In this document: one piece after another, positions 23,248 to 32,214 of the stretch
Numbering within the stretch: position 1 is the first letter of the stretch
Layout of the letters: the number at the start of each line of letters is the position of its first letter
DNA from: Syntrophobacteraceae bacterium
GTDB lineage: Bacteria; Desulfobacterota; Syntrophobacteria; Syntrophobacterales; Syntrophobacteraceae
Reading direction: 5' to 3'
Assembly (NCBI GenBank): GCA_018053185.1
Contig: JAGPLX010000006.1
Location: forward strand, 1 to 64,000
DNA length: 64,000 bases
Translations under genes and position numbers: made by a program
Notes under the pieces: model-generated
Seen by the model: only the letters and a program-made list of their open reading frames with translations
Told to the model about the DNA's origin: nothing
The model's database searches: none

Positions 23248-25233
23248 TCAGGGGTCCACCAACACTTCATACACTTGCACAGGGGTTTCCAATCCCTTGA
23301 CCCGAATGAGCCCTCGAGACCTCGAGGGTACATGACCCTGCACCAGGGTGTGGGTTCGTTCTGAGACAAGGATGCCCCCCACCGGGGCATTGGATTCAAG
23401 CCTCTGGGCGAGATTGACGGCGGACCCGAGCACGGTGTAGGACAATCGCCTCTTTGATCCCATATTTCCCACCACCACCTCCCCAGTATTGATCCCAATG
23501 CGGATTTTCAACGGCATCCCCCCGTCCCGCGCCCATGCCGCATCGAGCTCGCGAACCCGCTTCTGCATCTCCACGGCTGCCCGCACCGCACGGAGGGCAT
23601 GGTCTTCCTGGGGGTTCGGGTCTCCGAAAAAGACCATGAGCCCGTCTCCCATGTACTTGTCCACGGTCCCGTCATATCGGAAAACGATTTCGACCATGGC
23701 GTCGAAATACTCGTTGAGTGCCCTCCGGATTTCTTCGGGGGATTGCCGGGACGAGTGGGTGGTGAATCCCTGGATGTCGCTGAAAAGAATGGTGAGTTCC
23801 TTGCGTTGCCCTCCGGACTCGATGACCTCGGGCCTTGCCACAAGTTTCCCGACCACGGAGGGCGGGAAATAGGCCTCGAAGAGCCTCCGGAGCACGGCTT
23901 TTTCCCTGGACACTCGGATGTAGCGAACCCCCGTGATGTTTCCTGCCGAGAAAAGGATCGCCAGAAGCGGCCTCAGAAGGGGGATGAGGGTATGGAGGTA
24001 GAGAAAGGAAGCCAGGGCCGTGCCGGCAACCCCCAGGGCCAGGGCCAGGCAGAGCATGGGAAAGGCGTAGGAGGAGAAGAGGGTCGCCAGGAGGAGAATG
24101 CATCCCGCCAGGGTCGCATCCAGAAGAATTCCCTCGCTGAAAGTAAGCTCCCGTAAGAAGGCTTCGGCCAGGATCGTGTTCAAAACGTTGGCATGCAGGC
24201 CGCTCAGGGGCAGGTTCGCGTCGGTGGGAACAGGGCCCTGGTCCGCCGATCCCGTCGCCACGTCAGAGATGAGCACAATCTTTCCCGAGAGTTCCTCTTT
24301 CCACAGTACAAGTTCATCCCGGTCTTCGGAAGCCTTGTAGATAGCAGCGAAATTGTAGTGCTTCATTCGTTCCCAGGGGCCCACATAGTTGATTCGCAGG
24401 TTTCCCCGGGCATCGATGGGAATGCGAATGTCCCGACGGTCTTCCCCACGAGGGTGCCGGGCGCCTGCGAGAAGAATGTGCCTTCCCGGTGACAGGGTGA
24501 TCCGGTCTGGGCCGACGTCCAGGTAGTCGCAGGCCACGCGAAAGGGTAAGCTCGGATAGAATCCGTCTTCGAATTTCACGACCAGGGGGACCCGGCGGAA
24601 AACCCCGTCGGGGTCCGCCGTGACATTGAGGAAGCCGAGACCTCGAGAACGCAGGGCTAGGTCGGGAAAGGTGGAGAGCGGGTCCGAACCCCGGTAGAGC
24701 CCGGAGGGATCGCCCTCGATGCGGAGTCTCCAGCGGGTGCGTTCGAGGGTTGCCGTCCCTTGCGACTTTCCCCAGGCGCTTTCGGCTTTTTTGCCCATGG
24801 AGTCCAGGACAAAGGCCACACCGAAGTAGGCGTTCCCCGACCTGGCGGTGGCGGCGAGAAGCAGTTCGTCGTCCTCGGCATTGGTCCTGGCCGGAAAGAT
24901 GAAGTCATAGGCCTGGGCGAAGGAGTTCATGCTCGCCAGGTTTTCCATGAGCCGGGCGAAGTGGGCCCGGTTGAGGTAAAAGTTGCCCATCCGCTCCATG
25001 GTGGAATTGGTGATGTCCACGTGCACCACCGTCTGGTCGTAGGGAGGCTGCAGAGATGGGAAGGAAGACCGCAGGATGAAAAATCGGTCGAACAGCTGGT
25101 CGTTCCAGGTCGTGAACACCCGTGGAAAGATCAGGAAAAGGAGGTGTGCCCCGAGAAAGGAGATCACGATCCACAGGACCGTGATCCTTGCATGGCCTGG
25201 ATCACTGATGCTCGATGGTGAAGGTTTTGGCAT
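23248..25233 (-). CDS. CHASE2-domain class III adenylate/guanylate cyclase
   Basis: The product has 661 residues. A first membrane helix (about 17-38) is followed by an extracytoplasmic CHASE2 sensor domain (about 45-345; DQTVVHVDITNSTM and LSGLHANVLNTIL are typical). Three membrane helices (about 355-435) lead to a cytoplasmic cyclase domain (about 470-650). Cyclase motifs are LTILFSDIQGFTTHS (metal Asp), DKYMGDGLMVFFGDP (second Asp region), and GINTGEVVVGNMGSKRRL with LSYTVLGSAVNLAQRLE (transition-state Asn/Arg region: NLAQR). The substrate-specifying residues cannot be settled by eye. It overlaps the upstream DUF4384 gene by 32 nt and probably shares its mRNA with the caspase-like gene. 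Confidence 0.93.
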   Translation of the reverse strand: MPKPSPSSISDPGHARITVLWIVISFLGAHLLFLIFPRVFTTWNDQLFDRFFILRSSFPSLQPPYDQTVVHVDITNSTMERMGNFYLNRAHFARLMENLASMNSFAQAYDFIFPARTNAEDDELLLAATARSGNAYFGVAFVLDSMGKKAESAWGKSQGTATLERTRWRLRIEGDPSGLYRGSDPLSTFPDLALRSRGLGFLNVTADPDGVFRRVPLVVKFEDGFYPSLPFRVACDYLDVGPDRITLSPGRHILLAGARHPRGEDRRDIRIPIDARGNLRINYVGPWERMKHYNFAAIYKASEDRDELVLWKEELSGKIVLISDVATGSADQGPVPTDANLPLSGLHANVLNTILAEAFLRELTFSEGILLDATLAGCILLLATLFSSYAFPMLCLALALGVAGTALASFLYLHTLIPLLRPLLAILFSAGNITGVRYIRVSREKAVLRRLFEAYFPPSVVGKLVARPEVIESGGQRKELTILFSDIQGFTTHSSRQSPEEIRRALNEYFDAMVEIVFRYDGTVDKYMGDGLMVFFGDPNPQEDHALRAVRAAVEMQKRVRELDAAWARDGGMPLKIRIGINTGEVVVGNMGSKRRLSYTVLGSAVNLAQRLESNAPVGGILVSERTHTLVQGHVPSRSRGLIRVKGLETPVQVYEVLVDP

Positions 25234-25912
25234 AGAAGCCCGTCGAGGATGTGATCACCTCGGCAATGGGTTCGATACTCAGCCGGTTTTCCCCCTCGGC
25301 CTTTTCGATGCCTCGAATGGCTCCACCGATGGCTACAGGGCGTTCGGCGTTTTCGGCGAATTCCCGGTGGAGCATTCGTTCGTTTCGAATCTGGGCCAGG
25401 ATCTGGGTGGTGATGGCGGGTTTCTTCTCGGGATCCGCGGATTCGTAGGTTTTGAGCAAGTTCTCGATCTCGACCAGTCTGTGAACGGAAGCGAGCAAAT
25501 AGAAGGTTTCGCGCCCCGGGTGCCAATCAAGCTGAAACCATCGTTCCCCTTGGGGAATGAAATACTTCCTGTTCAGGTCGAAGCCGGTGGGGAATTGTTC
25601 GAGGGAGTAAGGGAAGAGCATGACCATTTCCCCCTGGGAGTTGTGGTAGATGACGTAGACGAAACATCGGGAGCGGGGTTCCACCATCATCTTGAAGTGA
25701 TCTCCGGATTTCATGATCCGGTCGTGCCGAATGGGCTCGAGCCGAAGGGTAGGCCCTTCGTCGACGAGGGTCCCGAAGGCCCACCGGAAGCTGATGGTCT
25801 CGTCCTGGGCCGGAGAGAAGGATGGGAGAAAGGGGCAGAAAAAAAACGTCAGGAAGAGGATCAAAAGGATCCGACTCCCCCGAAAGGTATCCTTCCGATG
25901 GGTCCGTCGCAT
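25202..25912 (-). CDS. Exported DUF4384-domain protein
   Basis: The product has 236 residues. A Sec signal peptide (basic start, hydrophobic ILLILFLTFFFCPFLPSF, probable cleavage after SPAQ) is followed by a DUF4384 domain: FKMMVEPRSRCFVYVIYHN followed by a Leu/Phe-rich FPYS, then FIPQGERWFQLDWHPGRETFYLLAS. DUF4384 is often found with caspase-like proteins and with kinases; its role is unknown. GGAGGA lies 4-5 nt before the ATG at 25912, which picks this start over one four codons earlier. It sits 24 nt after the caspase gene and overlaps the cyclase gene. Confidence 0.88.
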   Translation of the reverse strand: MRRTHRKDTFRGSRILLILFLTFFFCPFLPSFSPAQDETISFRWAFGTLVDEGPTLRLEPIRHDRIMKSGDHFKMMVEPRSRCFVYVIYHNSQGEMVMLFPYSLEQFPTGFDLNRKYFIPQGERWFQLDWHPGRETFYLLASVHRLVEIENLLKTYESADPEKKPAITTQILAQIRNERMLHREFAENAERPVAIGGAIRGIEKAEGENRLSIEPIAEVITSSTGFYAKTFTIEHQ

Positions 25913-25936
25913 GGTTTCCTCCATCTGCGCATTTTG

Positions 25937-27607
25937 CTAGGGTTCCCGCACCAGCCGGAAGCCCAGATCGTCGTTCATGCCGTTGGGAAGGCCGCTGCCC
26001 CGGTCCGCGCACCGCACGCTTCGGGGATTTCCGTGCCAGTATCCGCCGCGGATCACTCGATCGGTACCTCCGCCGGTATCCACGAGCAGAGGGCTATTGC
26101 GGTCGTGCCGGGTGTAGCCGTCGATGCTGTAGGTGTCCTCGCACCATTCCCAGACATTGCCCAGAATGTCGTAAAGCCCGAAAGCATTGGGCTGGAAGGC
26201 CCCCACGGGCGAAGTGGCTGCGTATCCGTCGTCGCAGTCGTGGGTGTCTTCCCATCCCCACTGGGCCTTGGCCGTCTCATCCGCCACATTCTCGAAGGTA
26301 CAGGCCCGGTTCGGATCGTCTCCCCAATAACGCGCGGCGTTGGAACCGGCCCGACAGGCGTATTCCCACTCCGCTTCGGTGGGAAGCCTAAATTGATATT
26401 TGCCGCCATTCCGGGCTTTGAGCCACTGGGCGAATCCGTTGGCGTCCTCCCAGGTCACATAGACGGCAGGCTGGTTGTCTCCGTTGAGGGAGAATCCATC
26501 GTAGTCCCTGCTGTCGTGCCCGGGTTGGAATATCCGGAACTGGCCGTTGGTGATTTCCGTCTTCCCCATCCAGAACCCCTCGAGGCAAACCTCGTGAACC
26601 GGTCCCTCGTCGGCGTCCCGTCCCACTTCCGTCAGGGGGCTTCCCATCATGAAACAGCCGCCGGGAATCCATACAAACTCGATGCCCGAAACGGGTTCTT
26701 TCCAGGTCTTGACTGTTTTCGCGAGAGTTTCCCCCCGAGTGTTCGACGCAACCAACGCTGCAGGTTTTCTGGCCGTGGCGGGATCCGAAGCGAGAAGTTC
26801 CGGGCCTGGTCCCGGCCTGAAAAAGAAGTCTCCCTCGAGTGAGGAGGACTCCCATGGGATCTGCCTTCCCTGGGTACTCTCGCGGACAGCGGAGCGCACC
26901 TGCTTGAACACATCCTCGATCTTGATTCCCGGGGTTTTCATGACACGGATCAACTCTGCGGTGTACACCCCGTTGTCCCCGGGGCCGTCGTTGGCTACGG
27001 AGCCGGGGGCCGTGGCATAGGCGATGAGGGTCCCGATGGGGGCGTTGACTGAAGCGAGGCCCTGGGCACTCGATCGGAAGCTGCGAGCGAAGGGGTTGTC
27101 GCGGCAGGCATCGAGGATGACGATGTTCAGCCGGTTTCTCGCGTATTCCATTTCCGACAACACGGACCCGACGTCCACTCCTTCGTACTCGACATGCTTT
27201 TCGTGTTCGATCTTGGCTCCGATAGGGATGAGATAGTTTTTCCCGTTCACCTGCATGCCGTGTCCAGCGTAGTAGAAGAGACCCACACCCCCTTTTTGGA
27301 GCTTTTGGCCGAAGGCCTGGATTTCCCGTTTCATGTCTTTCTGGGTGAGGTTTTCCCGCTCGGTGACGTCGAAACCCAGATCGATCAATGCCTGGGCGAC
27401 GGCTCGGGCATCGTTGACGGGATTGCGAAGAGGGGAAATCTCGTAGGACCCGTTGCCGATGACCAGGGCCGTGCGTTGTTCGCTGTCGGGGACGACGGGA
27501 GGACTCAATGGCGACCCGCCTGTCGTCTCTGTCCCCCACAGGTTGCTCATAACCCCGCCCAGGGTGGAGAAAACCAGGAAGGCGATCACGCCGATCATCC
27601 GATTCAT
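25937..27607 (-). CDS. Exported caspase-like (C14) protease fused to a formylglycine-generating-enzyme-like domain
   Basis: The product has 556 residues. A hydrophobic N-terminus (residues 4-24) looks like a signal peptide. A caspase-fold domain at about 43-270 shows RTALVIGNGSYEISPLRNPV, the catalytic His in LFYYAGHGMQVNG and the catalytic Cys in VILDACRDNPF. The C-terminal half (about 310-555) is a sulfatase-modifying-factor/FGE-like domain, with FVWIPGGCFMMGSP, RLPTEAEWEYACRAG, NVWEWCEDTY and the RGGYWHG...GFRLVREP ending. Many such fusions are not true FGEs and act in binding. First gene of a likely three-gene operon with the DUF4384 protein and CHASE2 cyclase. Confidence 0.93.
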   Translation of the reverse strand: MNRMIGVIAFLVFSTLGGVMSNLWGTETTGGSPLSPPVVPDSEQRTALVIGNGSYEISPLRNPVNDARAVAQALIDLGFDVTERENLTQKDMKREIQAFGQKLQKGGVGLFYYAGHGMQVNGKNYLIPIGAKIEHEKHVEYEGVDVGSVLSEMEYARNRLNIVILDACRDNPFARSFRSSAQGLASVNAPIGTLIAYATAPGSVANDGPGDNGVYTAELIRVMKTPGIKIEDVFKQVRSAVRESTQGRQIPWESSSLEGDFFFRPGPGPELLASDPATARKPAALVASNTRGETLAKTVKTWKEPVSGIEFVWIPGGCFMMGSPLTEVGRDADEGPVHEVCLEGFWMGKTEITNGQFRIFQPGHDSRDYDGFSLNGDNQPAVYVTWEDANGFAQWLKARNGGKYQFRLPTEAEWEYACRAGSNAARYWGDDPNRACTFENVADETAKAQWGWEDTHDCDDGYAATSPVGAFQPNAFGLYDILGNVWEWCEDTYSIDGYTRHDRNSPLLVDTGGGTDRVIRGGYWHGNPRSVRCADRGSGLPNGMNDDLGFRLVREP

Positions 27608-27675: not shown

Positions 27676-27968
27676 TTCTCGTTCGTTTTATGTGAAAAAC
27701 CGGAGGATTGATGACTCACCAGGTCCACCCCCGTTTTCCTCCTTTGGTGTGGCTCCACCGGATCGAGGAGTTTGAAAAGGAGAATCCCCCGAGCTGCGGA
27801 AGCGGACCGAAAACTGCCTGTACATGCCGATATCCAGGTACCTCAAAAATGCAGGGCGAATTCTATTCCCCGCATTTGCCGAAATCAAGCCCTTCGTGTT
27901 ATCAGTTGCCCTGTGGGCCCCGAAGGGGTTTCGTAACGTTTTGCCGGAGAGCGAGCCGGGTTGATCCC

Positions 27969-31077: not shown

Positions 31078-31929
31078 CTATGACCTGTGACCCATCCGCG
31101 AAACAATGGAATGAATTCCCTCGGCGGCATTCGTGGGCACCGGGATATTTTGGGGCAGGGCGCCCATGAAATCCCGGGGATTGATGCGGATGAGAGGAGC
31201 CTCGAGGCGCGCCGCCACCTGTTCAGATTGCCGACGAACCGTGGCAATGGCCGTGCCGGCTCCCACCTCGACTACAACGGCGGGGCACCGGGCCTGAATC
31301 ACGGAACGCAGCCATTCGGACAGGCGTCGGCCCTGGGATTCCGTGCGTCTGGAAACCCAGGACCAGTCTCCGAACATGAGGACATTGGGCCGAGCAATTC
31401 CTCCGCACTGGGGGCAGCGAGGAAGGGGTTCATGAGCCTCGAAAACCTTTTCATCCACTTCGACTTCCACCTCCGAGCCGTCCCAGATCTCCTCGGTACA
31501 AGGATCTGTGCACTGAAGGTGGTGAATGGAGCCGTGGCATTCCACGATGCGAGACCCGTCGTAGCCAGCTTTTTGAAATTGTCCGTCCACATTGGAAGTG
31601 AACACGAAGTATCCCAGGGGTTTGGTTTGAGCGATTTCCAGGAGAAGCTTGAACCCTTCATGGGGAACGGTCCTGCGATAGAGGTTCAGGCGGTGCCCGT
31701 AAAATGCCCACGCCAACTTAGGGTCCCGATGAAACCATTCGGGATTGGCCATCTCCACAAAAGACTTCCCAAGCCTGGCGATGGCAGGGTAGGCCTTCCA
31801 GAAACCATGGTTTCCCCGAAAGTCCGGAAGACCGGAATCCACTCCCATACCGGCTCCCGCCGTGATGAAAACGGCTTCGGCTTCCCTCAACGCCCTGGCT
31901 GCTTTCTCGATGTTCTCGTCGTAATGCAT
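31078..31929 (-). CDS. Sir2-family NAD-dependent protein deacylase
   Basis: The product has 283 residues. Motifs are FITAGAGMGVDSGLPDFRG (GAGxxxxSGxxxFR), FTSNVDGQFQKAG (TxNxD), catalytic His in VECHGSIHHLQC, and zinc Cys in CTDPC and CPQCGG. The RPNVLMFGDWSW segment is the RPxxVxFGE-like motif. It removes acyl groups from lysines using NAD. Compared with short bacterial sirtuins, this one has an extended zinc module with an acidic insert (EVEVEVDEKVFE). The ATG at 31929 was chosen; a 19-codon extension is not family-like. It is co-transcribed with the S1-like gene. Confidence 0.9.
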   Translation of the reverse strand: MHYDENIEKAARALREAEAVFITAGAGMGVDSGLPDFRGNHGFWKAYPAIARLGKSFVEMANPEWFHRDPKLAWAFYGHRLNLYRRTVPHEGFKLLLEIAQTKPLGYFVFTSNVDGQFQKAGYDGSRIVECHGSIHHLQCTDPCTEEIWDGSEVEVEVDEKVFEAHEPLPRCPQCGGIARPNVLMFGDWSWVSRRTESQGRRLSEWLRSVIQARCPAVVVEVGAGTAIATVRRQSEQVAARLEAPLIRINPRDFMGALPQNIPVPTNAAEGIHSIVSRMGHRS

Positions 31930-32214
31930 GGGAACCTTCCTCGAGGGCTGCTGTCCGGACATCGGGACAGGGCTGCATTCCACTCAAAGTATGTTTTTTA
32001 TCAAAGCTTGAGTGATTTTTCCACCTGGATGTGAGCTTCCGGGTCACTGCAGAGGGATCGTAAACCTTCCAGGCCTTCTTCCCTGGAACTCGGAGTTCCA
32101 ATCCAAAGCACCCCGACATTGACTCTCTTGTGAGCTTGTGGTAGGTGCTGTCTCAACGTCGCTGTCCGGCGTGAAATCCTGGTGGGCCTCTTCGTCACAA
32201 TGAGGATAGACGGC

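Follow-up and report, generated by a model that had tools for sequence, protein, structure and literature searches.

Among the closest described counterparts of the locus studied here are the CHASE2 cyclases CyaK, CyaD1 and CyaD2 of Sinorhizobium meliloti, which need the outer-membrane protein NsrA and answer a protease-sensitive protein signal (PMC7529298; PMC13001267). A plasmid carrying CyaD1 without its CHASE2 domain gives constitutive cAMP (PMC5498481), which suggests that CHASE2 holds the cyclase back. Our locus shares with this system a CHASE2 class III cyclase, a separate envelope protein and, in prediction, a protein signal and a cAMP output (PMC7529298; PMC5498481; PMC13001267); however, NsrA is an outer-membrane beta-barrel, and the available portions of these papers describe neither DUF4384 nor a protease. 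Exported partners are also encoded next to other CHASE2 receptors. In magnetotactic bacteria, the gene for MtxA—a signal-peptide protein with an Ig-like domain—lies directly before that of a CHASE2 cyclase, although MtxA is of the TPR/Ig-like type and no protease is involved (PMC4439547), and in the LysM-FecR-CHASE2 histidine kinase operon of Burkholderia (BiofilmReg) an exported FecR protein is coupled to a CHASE2 receptor, here with a kinase output and no caspase (PMC5192318). Caspase and CHASE2 have been found within one cyanobacterial protein, a Trichodesmium fusion, yet its caspase is predicted to be cytoplasmic, whereas in our locus the caspase is separate and predicted to be exported, and a cyclase provides the output in the cytoplasm (PMC3501461). 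The caspase-FGE architecture is itself already known (an FGE domain occurs in 33 of 671 metacaspases; PMC3501461), as are the single domains. Our literature search found CHASE2 and DUF4384 mentioned together only in a review of cyanobacterial orthocaspases and nothing that joins CHASE2, caspase and adenylate cyclase; nor did that search, outside which subscription papers mostly fall, return a standing combination of exported caspase, DUF4384 and CHASE2 receptor.

Such a combination is encoded in the window (i.e., the whole 64,000-nucleotide stretch of Syntrophobacteraceae DNA analyzed here) by three minus-strand open reading frames, transcribed in the order caspase-FGE (556 aa; 25937–27607), DUF4384 (240 aa; 25202–25924) and CHASE2 class III adenylate cyclase (661 aa; 23248–25233). 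The first-pass annotation had described a 24-nt gap followed by a 32-nt overlap. The overlap is exact (25202–25233, minus strand) and may reflect translational coupling of the DUF4384 and cyclase genes, which overlap or come close to doing so in nearly every orthologous locus; between the caspase and DUF4384 genes lie 12 nt if the first ATG (25924) is taken as the start, and the figure of 24 nt holds only for a start at the second Met (25912). There is no space for internal promoters between the trio genes and a promoter scan detected no minus-strand promoter-like site inside the operon; the one candidate that the scanned stretch offers on this strand, a weak sigma-70-like sequence 5′ of the caspase gene (27860–27888), is at chance level. 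Separate promoters and a lack of co-conservation would speak against the single operon proposed in that annotation, and what we found was no internal promoter site and strong co-conservation (see below). In the genome to which the window belongs (2.63 Mb, 111 contigs), caspase, CHASE2 and DUF4384 genes occur once each, namely in this trio.

The product of the first gene matches Peptidase_C14 (5.1e-42) and FGE-sulfatase (7.8e-55) in Pfam. Both it and the DUF4384 protein carry a single N-terminal hydrophobic segment by hydropathy and alignment, in agreement with the signal peptides claimed earlier, which we regard as putative; in the caspase the probable signal peptide covers approximately residues 1–25 (27533–27607; hydropathy residues 3–23), and the hydrophobic N-termini of orthologues align with it. 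The Peptidase_C14 domain (26822–27475) has the caspase p20 fold and the His–Cys dyad that characterize this family, and the two catalytic residues, already recognized in the first reading of the sequence, are placed by alignment at His116 (27260–27262) and Cys168 (27104–27106), unchanged in every one of the 20 homologues whose alignment covers them. Its best match in the PDB is the MALT1 paracaspase, with which the His, the Cys and two Asp residues (Asp66 and Asp166, also invariant in 20/20 homologues covering them) can be aligned, although MALT1 is eukaryotic, cytosolic and part of a signaling complex, and only ~165 residues align. The corresponding Asp residues form what we take to be the S1 pocket of MALT1; in enzymes of paracaspase and orthocaspase type, acidic S1 residues confer a preference for a basic P1 residue. 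As all four positions are invariant, the caspase is likely an active peptidase of Arg/Lys type. The C-terminal FGE-sulfatase-like domain (25946–26680) has a C-type-lectin fold. In genuine FGEs a Cys pair is catalytic and binds copper. Alignment to bacterial FGEs (6muj, 2q17) places residues other than Cys at both positions of this domain, so that FGE enzymatic activity can be rejected and the domain is probably a binding domain; it also matches PvdO, FGEs, GldK and the Treponema variable protein TvpA (2y3c, 6.5e-13).

The second protein matches DUF4384 (PF14326) at 3e-10, with 40.5 bits against a curated cut-off of 27, and belongs to a full-length subfamily that is sharply set apart (members score 195–318 bits, the next match 76) and has a C-terminal extension of its own. 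It is predicted to fold into a beta-sandwich that ends in a C-terminal strand (pLDDT 80.7). The most conserved stretch, AERPVxIGGxxRG (25310–25348), falls in a low-confidence, flexible loop (pLDDT 35–41). A role for this Arg-bearing loop as a caspase cleavage site found no support, since loci that lack a nearby protease conserve it as well. Also conserved is the C-terminal end, TI(E/D)Hx (25205–25219), which is altered in the one paralogue without a CHASE2 neighbor. Eight of the nine full-length members adjoin CHASE2, including where no caspase is near, and the ninth (L238) adjoins a UbiB-like kinase gene and has lost its TIEH end.

The third protein (CHASE2, 5.7e-39; Guanylate_cyc, 1.7e-30) is, as had been claimed, a membrane cyclase with a periplasmic sensor: hydropathy and a structure model agree on the layout of CHASE2 receptors, i.e., one N-terminal transmembrane helix, an extracytoplasmic CHASE2 domain (24103–25140), three transmembrane helices and a cytoplasmic output. 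The model is of good quality for the CHASE2 part (pLDDT 86.4), which includes a conserved flexible loop. Fold searches of the PDB with the CHASE2 and DUF4384 models gave no significant match that would hint at a ligand (best E 0.33 and 3.9e-3, respectively). The cyclase domain (23269–23802) is close to Pseudomonas CyaB and has the full set of class III adenylate cyclase residues, all invariant: the metal-binding Asp486 and Asp530, Lys526 and Thr600, and the Asn607/Arg611 transition-state pair. In class III cyclases, a Lys together with a Thr or Asp specifies ATP as substrate. While the first-pass annotation allowed for cAMP or cGMP, the invariant Lys526/Thr600 pair predicts ATP as substrate, so the product should be cAMP and not cGMP. 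Possible cAMP receptors are also encoded in the window's genome: a Crp-type regulator and a cNMP-binding–rhodanese protein whose phosphate-binding cassette looks canonical.

Within the family, orthologues of the caspase-FGE gene are present in 19 of 25 relatives and of the cyclase gene in 18 of 25, and the trio recurs in the same order and on the same strand in 17 relatives, two of which, at contig ends, show only the caspase end or only part of the cyclase. The G211 locus is cut by a contig end, and two genomes (G207, G213) have the caspase-FGE gene without an adjacent DUF4384-CHASE2 pair. The nearest of the named loci lie in Syntrophobacteraceae (L126, on a contig of G198, in the window's genus) and more distant ones among Desulfobacterales MAGs. 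As the trio is flanked by at least five different, unrelated gene sets, its integrity reflects more than inherited synteny. In four genomes, judged by eye, the caspase and DUF4384 genes are separated by an additional flavodoxin/FMN-reductase-like gene.

A co-occurrence survey of caspase, DUF4384 and CHASE2 cyclase genes, the check suggested with the first-pass annotation, extends this picture beyond the family and supports co-conservation, with linkage of DUF4384 to caspase and to CHASE2 across the phylum far above expectation. Among 198 genomes of the phylum, a caspase occurs in 36 of the 47 with DUF4384 vs 27 of the 151 without (Fisher p 2.6e-13, kinship ignored). Of 57 DUF4384 neighborhoods (at most ~6 kb each side), 30 contain a caspase vs ~0.13 expected from gene density, 7 a CHASE2 gene vs ~0.2 expected and 4 a CHAT protease; CHASE2 density and mean genome size are estimates here, and a severalfold error in them leaves the linkage result unchanged. 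Caspase, DUF4384 and CHASE2 are found together outside the family trio at eight loci (L106, L107, L110, L121, L128, L135, L143, L190), and in a genome-wide scan DUF4384 lies directly upstream of CHASE2 at 21 of 21 assessable loci, ~10 of them outside the family. For one of these eight, L128, the module was probably transferred or mis-binned, as its genome alone among 199 of its phylum has the full-length DUF4384 type.

The protease is the part that varies. Its forms beside DUF4384-CHASE2 pairs are caspase-FGE, caspase-PEGA-FGE (L106, L143), TPR-caspase (L121), caspase-Lcl_C (L131, L135) and TPR-CHAT (L124), with further caspases at L107 and L128; Lcl_C and FGE belong to the same lectin-like Pfam clan. 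DUF4384-caspase fusions occur at L128, L145, L161 and L190, the last adjoining a CHASE2 cyclase. FecR joins caspase, DUF4384 and CHASE2 at L110 and accompanies DUF4384-CHASE2 cyclases at L109 and L144. At L135, the CHASE2 receptor has a SpoIIE phosphatase output in place of the cyclase and keeps its DUF4384 gene (with CHAT and caspase neighbors), so the bond of DUF4384 is to CHASE2, not to the cyclase. At L125, L182 and L239 the pair stands without a protease in its vicinity, and these loci together with the lone caspase-FGE genes of G207 and G213 indicate that the protease is not strictly needed. The DUF4384-CHASE2 bond is thus the tightest, and the caspase is an exchangeable part, sometimes missing or replaced by CHAT.

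Because the trio is kept together while its surroundings change, it is probably one envelope-sensing system. How its parts would work together can be sketched tentatively: we lean toward a single module in which the CHASE2 cyclase is the receptor, DUF4384 its periplasmic partner and the caspase a peptidase shaping the signal, at somewhat below even confidence. The cyclase would be anchored in the inner membrane, exposing its sensor to the periplasm and making cAMP inside; the DUF4384 protein would contact CHASE2 as a co-receptor or regulator; and the caspase-FGE protein, presumably exported and probably Arg/Lys-specific, would make, trim or remove a protein or peptide signal read by the pair, its FGE-like domain binding something. 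By analogy with protein-sensing cyclases, a peptidase or peptide-binding protein may possibly feed the CHASE2 sensor, as the first-pass annotation had it. The sharpest version, in which a periplasmic paracaspase cuts after Arg or Lys and so creates or destroys a ligand of the DUF4384-CHASE2 complex, which then governs cytoplasmic cAMP (or, with swapped output, a phosphatase), is in our view unlikely. The exchangeable caspase, able to stand alone in G207 and G213, also fits a somewhat doubtful but serious reading in which sensing falls to the DUF4384-CHASE2 cyclase and the exported caspase-FGE is a co-expressed effector (envelope proteolysis or protein processing) rather than an upstream signal generator, as an operon gives joint expression with no need for contact; however, the recurrence of clan-CD proteases beside the pair in many lineages and the DUF4384-caspase fusions point to a closer tie. 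Those fusions, the cyanobacterial orthocaspase variants with DUF4384 (PMC7475262) and the stronger phylum-wide linkage of DUF4384 to caspase than to CHASE2 would instead suit DUF4384 as a regulator or substrate adaptor of the caspase, with the CHASE2 cyclase a later addition and the DUF4384-CHASE2 bond secondary. We think this improbable, as the trio's own subfamily has its C-terminal extension and adjoins CHASE2 in all but one member, even without a nearby caspase.

Two further readings depart from envelope signaling and fare worse. In PADLOC, the cyclase domain is recognized by PycC models (2.6e-35) and there is a weak hit to a caspase model (6.2e-12), as might be expected of an anti-phage or cell-death system with a Pycsar-like cyclase and a caspase effector, but the PycC hits reflect only a fold common to class III cyclases, our cyclase is a transmembrane CHASE2 sensor, the caspase has a putative export signal and a bacterial family keeps the trio stably; a Pfam scan of the adjacent genes revealed no cyclic-nucleotide-gated Pycsar effector, and we consider this explanation very unlikely. 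The likeness to TvpA would allow the FGE-like C-terminus to be the variable display domain of a diversity-generating-retroelement target, yet that C-terminus is conserved among orthologues rather than hypervariable, and a search of the genome for a template repeat of the caspase-FGE 3′ end returned only the self-match; with both template repeat and hypervariability absent, we reject this reading, to which we give almost no probability.

Discussions of bacterial caspases usually cast them as cytosolic cell-death agents, and to our knowledge neither DUF4384 nor the ligands of CHASE2 sensors have a generally assigned function. The stable union of an active-looking, putatively exported caspase with DUF4384 and CHASE2 in one module gives each of the three a testable role, and suggests that clan-CD proteases may act in bacterial extracytoplasmic signaling.

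In four related genomes, a gene that by eye resembles a flavodoxin/NAD(P)H-FMN reductase lies between the caspase and DUF4384 genes (L099 8870-9493, L101 8439-9062, L104 4258-4830 and L105 8970-9545, counted within each compared locus). Caspase-DUF4384 fusion proteins occur in several genomes (L145, L161, L162, L128 and L190), some of them in tandem arrays. At L135 (9800-12070), the output of the CHASE2 receptor linked to DUF4384 is a SpoIIE phosphatase, and the receptor gene is flanked by TPR-CHAT and caspase-Lcl_C genes. Genome G204 holds a second DUF4384 copy (L238 7025-7750), which has lost the C-terminal TIEH motif and adjoins a UbiB/ABC1-like gene rather than CHASE2.

Where caspase-FGE stands alone in the family, as in G213, an iron-sulfur/membrane redox gene pair follows (L097 5186-7298; by eye, heterodisulfide-reductase-like and nitrate-reductase-gamma-like), and the setting in G207 looks similar. 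In the window, a Sir2-family gene (31078-31983) lies outside the operon, on its strand and a few genes upstream.

In one genome the operon and a gene for an FHA-GAF adenylate cyclase (L089 10996-12567) are transcribed towards each other. In the window's own genome a rhodanese is fused to a cNMP-binding domain (L195 875-1792); this protein is a possible cyclic-nucleotide receptor.
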